DNA of 64,000 nt, taken from Rhizobium sp. Q54. Its GTDB lineage: Bacteria > Pseudomonadota > Alphaproteobacteria > Rhizobiales > Xanthobacteraceae. Made by a program: the position numbers and the translations under genes. The notes below the pieces were generated by a model. It searched no databases. It was given only the letters and a program-made list of their open reading frames with translations, and was not told the origin of the DNA. The DNA is taken from the NCBI GenBank assembly GCA_945861265.1, contig CAMAUC010000004.1, forward strand, positions 1-64,000, read 5' to 3'. Shown here piece by piece: positions 20,019 to 61,051 of this stretch; positions within the stretch are counted from its first letter, which is position 1; each line of letters begins with the position of its first letter.

Positions 20019-21059
20019 ATGACAAAGTACAAGCTCGAGTACATTTGGCTCGACGGCTACAAGCCGGTTCCAAATTTGCGTGGCAAGACTCAGATCAAGG
20101 AATTCGACGCCTTCCCGACCCTCGAACAGCTTCCGCTGTGGGGCTTCGACGGCTCCTCGACGATGCAGGCCGAAGGCCACTCGTCCGATTGCGTGCTCAA
20201 GCCCGTCGCCTGCTATCCGGACGGCGCCCGCACCAATGGCGTTCTGGTGATGTGCGAAGTCATGATGCCGGATGGCGTCACACCGCACGCGACCAACAAG
20301 CGCGCCACCATCCTCGACGACCCCGGCGCCTGGTTCGGTTTCGAGCAGGAATACTTCATGTACAAGGAAGGCCGTCCGCTCGGCTTCCCGACCTCGGGTT
20401 ATCCGGCGCCGCAGGGCCCGTATTACACCGGCGTTGGCTACTCGAATGTCGGTTCGGTCGCGCGCGAGATCGTCGAGAAGCATCTCGACCTCTGCCTCGC
20501 CGCCGGCATCAACCACGAAGGCATCAACGCCGAAGTGGCCAAGGGCCAGTGGGAATTCCAGATCTTCGGCAAAGGCTCCAAGAAGGCCGCTGACGAAATG
20601 TGGATGGCCCGCTACCTGCTGCAGCGGCTGACCGAGTCCTACGGCATCGACATCGAATATCACTGCAAGCCGCTCGGCGACACCGACTGGAACGGCTCGG
20701 GCATGCACGCCAACTTCTCGACCGAGTATATGCGTACGGTCGGCGGCAAGGCCTATTTCGAAGCGATGATGAAGGCCTTCGGCGAAAACTGGAAAGAGCA
20801 CATCGACGTGTACGGTCCGGACAACGACAAGCGCCTGACCGGCAAGCACGAGACCGCGCCGTGGAACAAGTTCTCCTACGGTGTGGCCGATCGTGGCGCC
20901 TCGATCCGCGTGCCGCACTCCTTCGTCAAGGGCGACGCCTACAAGGGCTATCTGGAAGATCGCCGCCCGAACTCGCAAGGCGACCCCTACGCCATCGCCT
21001 CGCAGATCCTCAAGACCATCGCCTCGGTGCCGACATCGGCCAAATCGGCGGCGGCGTGA
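20019..21059 (+). CDS. glnII: Glutamine synthetase type II (eukaryote-like)
   Basis: MTKYKLEYIWLDGYKPVPNLRGKTQI, WGFDGSSTMQAEG, GFEQEYFMYKEGRPLG; ATG at 20019. Confidence 0.97.
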   Translation: MTKYKLEYIWLDGYKPVPNLRGKTQIKEFDAFPTLEQLPLWGFDGSSTMQAEGHSSDCVLKPVACYPDGARTNGVLVMCEVMMPDGVTPHATNKRATILDDPGAWFGFEQEYFMYKEGRPLGFPTSGYPAPQGPYYTGVGYSNVGSVAREIVEKHLDLCLAAGINHEGINAEVAKGQWEFQIFGKGSKKAADEMWMARYLLQRLTESYGIDIEYHCKPLGDTDWNGSGMHANFSTEYMRTVGGKAYFEAMMKAFGENWKEHIDVYGPDNDKRLTGKHETAPWNKFSYGVADRGASIRVPHSFVKGDAYKGYLEDRRPNSQGDPYAIASQILKTIASVPTSAKSAAA

Positions 21060-21090
21060 GGCTGCACTAAGCGTTTCCTCCCGAAGACTT

Positions 21091-21123
21091 CAAATGGGCG
21101 TCCCGCAAGGGGCGCCCTTTTTC
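21091..21123 (+). terminator. Terminator downstream of glnII
   Basis: aatGGGCGtcccgcaaggGGCGCCCtttttc. Confidence 0.75.
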
Positions 21124-21218
21124 TTGTCGCCGTCATTTAGGCTCTCCAGGCACCTTTCAACCGCGCGAGCCCGCCGCTAGATAGGCGGCTGGAGAGCCAT
21201 CGCCATGAACCGCCCCCA

Positions 21219-34996: not shown

Positions 34997-35026
34997 CTTG
35001 ACATCTATCCTATGATCTAATACCTA
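34997..35026 (+). promoter_or_regulatory. Promoter-like sequence upstream of structured element copy A
   Basis: CTTGACATCTATCCTATGATCTAATACCTA in an AT-rich island; partial match to the copy B upstream sequence. Confidence 0.45.
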
Positions 35027-35040
35027 TGCCGATGCCCGCC

Positions 35041-35411
35041 CCACATGAGGGGACGCGAACCGGTTGCGCCGGCTCGTGGGGAGCGGGCCGGCGTCCGCGG
35101 GCGTGTCCGAGCAGGGACACGCGCTCGGGCGGTGCCGGGGCTCCACCCGGGGACACTAAGATCCCCCGCCGGGAGCCGGCTGACGGTGCGAAGCCGTTGG
35201 CCTTGCCGGGGCAAAAGGCGTTCTCGGTGCCCAAAAGGGCCGAGAGCCCGGCCGCCCTGGGAGGCCAATAGCCGCCGGAAGCGTGGCCCGGCTGCCGCGA
35301 AAGCGCCGGACGGCGCGCCGAGAGGCGCCACGCGATCCGAAAGGATTGCGTGAAGCAAAAGGACTGCCGCGCCTTTCGGTGCGCCGTCCCCCTCTTCTTT
35401 CTCGAAGAGGG
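35041..35411 (+). ncRNA. Candidate structured RNA element, copy A
   Basis: Aligns to the inverse of 59644..60036; stems preserved with compensatory changes, 21-bp helix 35308-35328/35369-35389, GAAA-capped hairpin, terminal 8-bp hairpin 35390-35411. Confidence 0.65.
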
Positions 35412-35490
35412 AAACTCCTCAAGCCTCGGGGCCATGCGGCCCGCGAGAAGGCGCCCGCGCGCCCGCTCTCCCAAAAACAAAGGACCCTCC

Positions 35491-35811
35491 ATGAACAAAG
35501 CCGAATACAAGCAATTCCAAGACCGCATCGCCCGCATCGGTCACAAGGCCGTCGATGCCTGCGAAAAGATCATCGACACCGTCAATGGTCTGAACGCATC
35601 CGCGCATACACGCCGCACGCCGGCTCACGTCGCGCGCCGCCAGATCGCCAACACGCTGCGCGTCTCGCAGTTCTGCGCCATGCGCGCCTGCCGGCGTTCG
35701 CATTGCTGCCGCGGCGAGCCGGCACATTGTTTGCAATCGGTCCTGCCGCTGCTGCCGGCGCAAACCTTTATCGGCGTTCGCCGGGGCAAACGCCGCGTCG
35801 CGAAAATATGA
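35491..35811 (+). CDS. Hypothetical Cys-rich small protein
   Basis: ATG at 35491 after AAAGGA-like RBS; MNKAEYKQFQDRIARIGHKAVDACEKIIDTVNG...CAMRACRRSHCCRGEPAHCLQ. Confidence 0.7.
   Translation: MNKAEYKQFQDRIARIGHKAVDACEKIIDTVNGLNASAHTRRTPAHVARRQIANTLRVSQFCAMRACRRSHCCRGEPAHCLQSVLPLLPAQTFIGVRRGKRRVAKI

Positions 35812-58119: not shown

Positions 58120-58120
<1 letters not shown>
57356..58120 (-). CDS. surE: 5'/3'-nucleotidase SurE
   Basis: MRILITNDDGIHAPGL, PETDQSGVSHSLSL, SGVNRGRNAAEDVIYSGTVAAALEG. Confidence 0.96.
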
Positions 58121-59562
<1,442 letters not shown>

Positions 59563-59643
59563 CTAGTCGGATTTTCGGGCTTAGCCAACGCTTCGCCGCC
59601 CGTATTATTGAAAGGCCCCGGGCAGGCCGCCTTCCTTATCCTA

Positions 59644-60036: not shown

Positions 60037-60069
60037 GACAGCGCCCCTCGATTGAGCAGGACGAGGGAA

Positions 60070-60099
60070 TTTAAGCATAGGATTAATAGCTGGTCAAGC
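60070..60099 (-). promoter_or_regulatory. Promoter-like sequence upstream of copy B
   Basis: On - strand: CTTGAC-N17-CTTAAA (CTTGACCAGCTATTAATCCTATGCTTAAA). Confidence 0.5.
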
Positions 60100-60217: not shown

Positions 60218-61051
60218 CTACTCCGCCGGCTTGGCCGGTTCGCCGACATCCGCCGCCGCTTTCGCGTCGGCCTCGGCCTTGGCGTCGGCATCCTTCTTCG
60301 CGCGCTTCTCGACGACGCCGACCGAAAGGATCGAGCCCTCGTAGAGAATGAGCAGCGGGATCGCCAGCGACATCTGGCTGATGACGTCGGGCGGCGTCAG
60401 CACCGCCGCGACGACGAAGGCGGCGACGATGAAGTAGCGGCGCTTTTCCTTCAGTTGCTGCGCGGTAATGACGCCGATGCGGCCGAGCAGCGTGAGAATG
60501 ACCGGCAACTGGAAAGCGACGCCGAAAGCGAGCACGAGCGTCATCATCAGCGACAGATATTCGCCGACCTTGGGCAGAAGCGCGATCGAGGCTTCGCCCT
60601 CGACGCCGGTCTGCTGCATGCCGAGCGAAAAGCGGATCAGCATCGGCAGCACCATGAAATAGACCACCGTGCCGCCGAGCGCGAAGAAGAACGGCGTCGC
60701 CACCAGATAAGGCAGGAAGGCCTTGCGCTCGTGCCGGTAAAGACCCGGCGCGACGAACATGTAAATCTGCGCGGCGATCACCGGGAACGCCAGAAATGCC
60801 GCGCCGAACATGGCGAGCTTCAACTGCGTCATGAAATATTCGAGCAGCGCGGTGTAGATGAATTTCGAATTCTCCGCGCCGGCGACCCAGACGAAGGGCC
60901 AGACGAGGATGTTGTAGATCTGCTTGGCGAAGGCAAAGCAGATCGCGAACATCACGCCGAAGGCGATCAAAGCCTTGATGAGCCGCGAGCGCAGCTCGAT
61001 CAGATGCTCCATCAGCGGCGCCTTGCTGGCCTCGATGTCGTCGTGGCTCAC
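60218..61051 (-). CDS. tatC: Sec-independent translocase subunit TatC
   Basis: [22 protein letters not shown], six TM segments. Confidence 0.96.

Follow-up and report, generated by a model that had tools for sequence, protein, structure and literature searches.

The window, a 64,000-nucleotide stretch of the Rhizobium sp. Q54 genome (contig CAMAUC010000004.1), contains two intergenic members of a family of free-standing structured RNAs of approximately 370-420 nt (family 1), which occurs in Pseudolabrys and related Hyphomicrobiales. The model search detected exactly these two members, copies A and B (Table 1), and no copy of a sister family (family 2) in the window. The fold and the family are well supported. 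Judged from the sequence, copies A and B are probably sigma70-transcribed genes for free-standing, ornate non-coding RNAs that act in trans, a reading to which we assign a probability of about 0.55; what speaks for a function in trans is position and conservation. To our knowledge, so many copies of so elaborate a non-coding RNA are rare in bacteria. The preliminary description of this DNA had recognized a structured RNA family consisting of two divergent copies. The family was borne out, but not the number, as DNA and model searches located 13 family-1 copies in this genome, in addition to the sister family. The interval originally described lies within the element, which extends beyond it to include the promoter-like stretch, the start of P1 and the 3' hairpin P11.

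Copies A (35041-35411, +) and B (60036-59644, -) can be aligned over their whole length, as had been described, with a mean column identity of ~75%. Scripted pairing reproduced all of the short stems named earlier (6/6, 6/6, 5/5, 5/5, 8/8 and 7/7 pairs), the long helices with 21/21 and 20/20 pairs (two G-U pairs each), and the 10-bp GAAA-capped stem inside the long helix of copy A, which includes one G-U pair. The short stems and the long helix were thus correctly identified, but P2, the outer helix, and P4, which pairs over a long range, had been overlooked. The fold energies of copies A and B are -243 kcal/mol (z = -8.6) and -260 kcal/mol (z = -9.2), respectively, and for neither copy was any of 100 dinucleotide shuffles as good.

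Table 1. Features of copies A and B and of their surroundings (window positions).
Feature	Position	Strand	Remarks
Copy A, promoter-like stretch	34998..35023	+	read from sequence; conserved across copies
Copy A, -35/-10-like elements	34998-35003; 35018-35023	+	TTGACA; AT-rich TAATAC; 14-nt spacing, below ideal
Copy A, 5' domain P1	35034..35091 (start ~35034)	+	GCCCGCCCCAC..GTGGGGAGCGGGC; covariation over 83 copies
Copy A, core P2-P6	35084..35310	+	match to model R1, 114 bits; covariation
Copy A, long helix P9	35308..35389	+	35308-35328 pairs with 35369-35389, 21 bp
Copy A, inner 10-bp stem of P9, GAAA loop	35329-35338/35343-35352	+	scripted pairing and folding
Copy A, hairpin P10	35390..35411	+	CCCTCTTC/GAAGAGGG; sequence, pairing, fold
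Copy A, hairpin P11	about 35425..35447	+	CTCGGGGCC..GGCCCGCGAG; tail conserved in alignment
Cys-rich small ORF, 106 aa, downstream of copy A	35491..35811	+	motif ..MRACRRSHCCRGEPAHCLQ..; no Pfam match
tatC, upstream of copy B	60218..61051	-	Pfam PF00902
Copy B, promoter	60069..60097	-	TTGACC 60097-60092, 17-nt spacer, TTAAAT 60074-60069
Copy B, P1 and core P2-P6	59787..60062	-	P1 60062 to about 60009; R1 match 60012-59787, 142 bits
Copy B, long helix P9	59664..59787	-	59787-59768 pairs with 59683-59664, 20 bp; variable apical domain
Copy B, hairpin P10	59644..59663	-	CCCTCGG/CCGAGGG; sequence and scripted pairing
Copy B, tail hairpin P11	about 59597..59622	-	CCCGGGGCC..AATAATACGGGCG; conserved in type B of family 1 and also in family 2
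serS (seryl-tRNA synthetase), downstream of copy B	58120..59553	-	Pfam PF00587, PF02403; marks conserved site

Within the element, P1 is followed by P2, which is positioned around the variable P3 and the long-range helix P4; P4 in turn surrounds the hairpins P5 and P6, and P9, P10 and P11 complete the 3' part. P3 is closed by CCCG/CGGG. The unpaired core is nearly invariant and consists of the CACUANGA loop of P5, the GAG triloop of P6, CUGA and AAGCG. Among 47 diverse copies, 96.1% of the P2-P6 pairs are standard pairs compared to 80.6% in shuffled versions, and the core contains 259 double-change cells versus 78 in shuffles. Double changes affect 25 of the 38 core pairs, more than in any of 500 shuffles or in any slid version; these slid-register controls reach at most 49% standard pairs. 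The compensatory changes described from two copies were also found in the larger alignment, where an all-against-all test returned eight column pairs with E<0.05, seven of them within the predicted fold and all eight mainly standard pairs; these E-values are approximate and refer to 40 alignments simulated on the tree with gaps and phylogeny kept. Across 83 copies, P1 shows 85% standard pairs and double changes at 14 of its 18 pairs. Double changes are many in P1 and P9, and few in P10 and P11. A 5' pseudoknot GGGGCGC/GCGCCC (GGACGC/GCGTCC in copy A) appeals to the eye, but no pairing register between the strands was backed by covariation, and it is at most a candidate. A protein-coding reading was rejected: in agreement with the earlier view that selection does not act on protein, each frame is open in just 5-18 of the 83 copies.

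The RNAs were also compared with known classes. None of the 4227 models of Rfam 15 matched copies A and B or eleven other copies at threshold or with a plausible score, consistent with the initial impression that they belong to no named class. For copies of both families the best chance scores were far below threshold, and no Rfam family exceeded its threshold in family-2 copies. HEARO RNAs, the omega RNAs of IscB, are GC-rich multi-helix RNAs of which stand-alone copies occur. Family 1 shares these features, and its large scaffold and many stand-alone copies would fit an RNA that acts in trans as guide or scaffold for an RNA-guided nuclease of this type. This is very improbable, however, as the HEARO model (RF02033) matched neither copies A and B (E<=1) nor the eleven others (E<=5), and the gap between promoter and P1 leaves no space for a 5' guide region. 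The RRXRR (IscB) domain was found in 0 of 61 genomes, although control genomes likewise gave 0. Group II introns, the other class proposed for comparison, did not match either. Covariance models of OLE, GOLLD and ROOL gave no match on copies A and B and eleven further copies. For these ornate large bacterial RNAs, RNA-only assemblies have been described (PMC12286853). Family 1 resembles them in being large, elaborately folded, non-coding and of unsettled function, but differs in its chromosomal copy number of up to 22 per genome, its boxA tail, the missing match to an Rfam model, its absence from the phage, plasmid and viral sets and its occurrence only in Hyphomicrobiales in these scans. No description of the family was found in the open-access literature. 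Because neither core matches a curated RNA family and the combination is otherwise not known, we judge the two families to be a new kind of RNA, as far as the open-access literature shows. We know of no bacterial RNA with such a copy number, common ends and boxA. Two matches to other classes were recorded: an mmgR/suhB sRNA (RF00519) barely above threshold at 21057-21132 (+) of the window, and, in a Bradyrhizobiaceae MAG (L125, 6740-6787, -), a Guanidine-II riboswitch that just reaches its threshold.

The upstream -35/-10 pair is conserved, with a TATCC variant instead of TTGAC in some lineages. TTGAC is located upstream of 61 of the 83 copies (2.4% in shuffles), and 56 of 83 copies possess a sigma70-like promoter with at most three mismatches from TTGACA/TATAAT, compared to 4% of shuffles. 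The nearest downstream gene is on the same strand in 64 cases and on the opposite strand in 54, and the corresponding ratio for the nearest upstream gene is 62:60. Thus, no constant 5' position before a same-strand gene was found, and the flanking genes, which lie either way round, indicate that family 1 is free-standing and not cis-regulatory. The neighbors are ordinary genes; besides serS and tatC they include mutL, an RF-1 domain gene and genes for a polysaccharide deacetylase and a histone-deacetylase-like protein. The 106-aa Cys-rich ORF stays adjacent to the orthologs of copy A in the genus.

The 3' ends of some copies carry a boxA motif. TTTGAAAATTGAATC was detected with up to two mismatches at 26 of 161 distinct family-1 3' ends, mostly within 60 nt, and therefore cannot be required by every copy. 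In nine genomes, an 18-base boxA pattern (up to one mismatch) had 27 matches and its reversed control none; 26 of these matches are located at element 3' ends and the 27th in a 16S leader. These 26 ends were assigned by model or profile matches or by coordinates beside model matches, and at L282 and L414 by the conserved tail alone. At L280, the rRNA-type boxA GGCTGTTTGACAACTGAATCGG, ~200 nt upstream of 16S, is the same motif as in the element tails. Most copies of a genome from another genus of the same family (G401) harbor boxA, whereas it occurs in none of those of G176 (family f32). GAAAATCCGA after copy B was considered as a decayed boxA, but belongs to the native serS leader, as empty sites show. 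An intrinsic terminator at P10 was rejected, since it is not followed by a U run. A promoter followed by a structured RNA and boxA could also represent a cis-acting leader that makes downstream transcription resistant to termination. The presence of boxA 3' of a subset of copies is in line with this, as is the lack of a U run after P10 and P11, neither of which is therefore a classical terminator. Nevertheless, such a leader is improbable because the downstream gene is in opposite orientation in 54 of 118 cases, most copies lack boxA, and nothing is conserved 3' of it among the family-1 ends.

Family 1 is abundant within the genus and patchy beyond it. Matches were obtained in 26 of the 36 other genomes of the same genus, a few of them weakly, with a maximum of 22 copies per genome. 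The isolate Pseudolabrys sp. Root1462 harbors copies on its contigs, and a degenerate motif detected more than 112 loci in named genomes, nearly all labeled Pseudolabrys, Pseudorhodoplanes or other Hyphomicrobiales, which makes Pseudolabrys the most probable genus for the genome of the window and its congeners. The P11 tail pattern, common to type B copies of family 1 and to family 2, has 18 exact matches in the genome of the window, and its reversed control has none. Among 397 other genomes of the order 13 matched, several with 3-7 copies and including other families (f32, f42), whereas none of 387 further genomes of the class did, where sensitivity was limited to seven scored candidates per genome. 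The viral contigs, phages and plasmids of the searched collections contained no match.

Many of these loci are shared between genomes, as 58 cross-genome pairs of copies have both flanks in common. Several Pseudolabrys genomes carry a copy at the tatC-serS site of copy B, and so do two genomes of family f32, G176 and G411. Between f32 and Pseudolabrys, the copies at this site show a cross-family likeness of.51-.63, compared to a paralog likeness of.81-.88. Among congeners, the site is filled in G000, G002, G014, G817, G008 and G032 and empty in G004, G015, G028 and G034, and the intergenic sequences of filled and empty sites are too diverged to place junctions. Gaps of 500-660 nt between tatC and serS in two other families were dismissed as element sites because their sequence is unrelated. 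Likeness of promoter, P1, P9 and tail is higher at the same site (.67,.81,.77 and.73) than among paralogs (.54,.61,.66 and.56), while the core is similar in both comparisons (.83 at the same site,.815 among paralogs). As the periphery tracks the site and the core tracks the genome, we read this as old sites with a core homogenized within genomes by concerted evolution. Occupancy between tatC and serS could alternatively result from recurrent insertion at a hot spot, and some congeners have the site empty. As in rRNA and other stable-RNA gene families, dispersed paralogs are homogeneous within each genome and boxA corresponds to that of the 16S leader; family 1 differs from rRNA genes in its unrelated sequence and fold and in having boxA 3' of the RNA instead of before it, in some copies only.

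The same observations bear on whether family 1 is a mobile or selfish element, with a conserved fold through which a trans-acting enzyme would copy or insert it and with copies that have no function for the host. Many copies in both orientations, homology of paralogs that is confined to the element in several genomes, a site that is present or absent within the genus, and the patchy distribution over the order would all be expected of such an element. In a 2024 survey of 50 genomes such signs define the mobile/repeat class (PMC11109978), and family 1 shares high copy number and inconstant orientation with its candidates. It differs from them in its many helices, its own promoter, its long-lived sites and its neighborhood: no transposase, integrase, reverse transcriptase or nuclease was found beside the copies examined (by Pfam for the neighbors in this genome, by eye for the recurrent neighbor families over all loci). 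Moreover, the element is missing from the phage, plasmid and viral collections, sites are common to different families, and a single stem would be far simpler than this fold. Transposition would also move the whole unit, whereas only the core is homogenized. A mobile element is thus possible but rather unlikely, and we favor a trans-acting ornate RNA.

The boxA motif search also led to family 2, which shares the promoter, a 5' hairpin, P9, P10, P11 and boxA with family 1 but has a different core. Its prototype lies outside the window (L286, G000:C33:16783-17443, +). The core is characterized by the motifs GCGGTCCAAGCCGC, GGTGGATAGG..CCTGAAA..TCCACC and GCGGAGCAAACCTATAAACACCG. Among 33 copies, 94% of the pairs are standard pairs and 43 pairs show double changes, with the fold fitted to that alignment. 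Ten copies are present in this genome and ten in a genome of family f35, and further families contain members. An elaborate fold in up to 22 copies and a second fold on the same ends suggest an overlooked RNA-based function in a common lineage.

If the RNAs act in trans, the many copies would provide a high dose of near-identical RNA, and the near-invariant unpaired core might bind a common protein or RNA partner. Such a partner would require every copy to retain the same core, as in genes for rRNA or tRNA. Judging by the boxA tail, either this partner or transcription of the RNA may be tied to Nus/S10 antitermination and ribosome biogenesis, boxA being the one feature from which this link is drawn; as a guess, the RNA might hold or hand over NusB-S10-SuhB. 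More speculatively, both families could form a superfamily with common ends (promoter, P1, P9-P11 and boxA), interchangeable cores and tens of long-lived, core-homogenized copies, and thus a new RNA machine of the Nus system or ribosome biogenesis in Hyphomicrobiales, which we consider doubtful. As trans-acting RNAs they would add to the small number of large RNAs in bacteria whose role is not known, and as mobile elements they would be unusually ornate; either outcome would be new.

Several family-1 copies deviate in architecture. The variable domain 3' of GCUGAYGG is exchanged between subtypes, as L010 (type A) and L015 (type B) have one common alternative module. In a subfamily comprising L315 and the G401 loci L228 and L229, the domain between P6 and P4 is enlarged and includes a GGTGAAGGC.GGCGAAAGCC unit. 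At locus L020 of G025, a partial copy (1160-1320, approximately the first 118 nt) is located directly upstream of a full copy (1454-1940), an arrangement that suggests tandem duplication or recombination.
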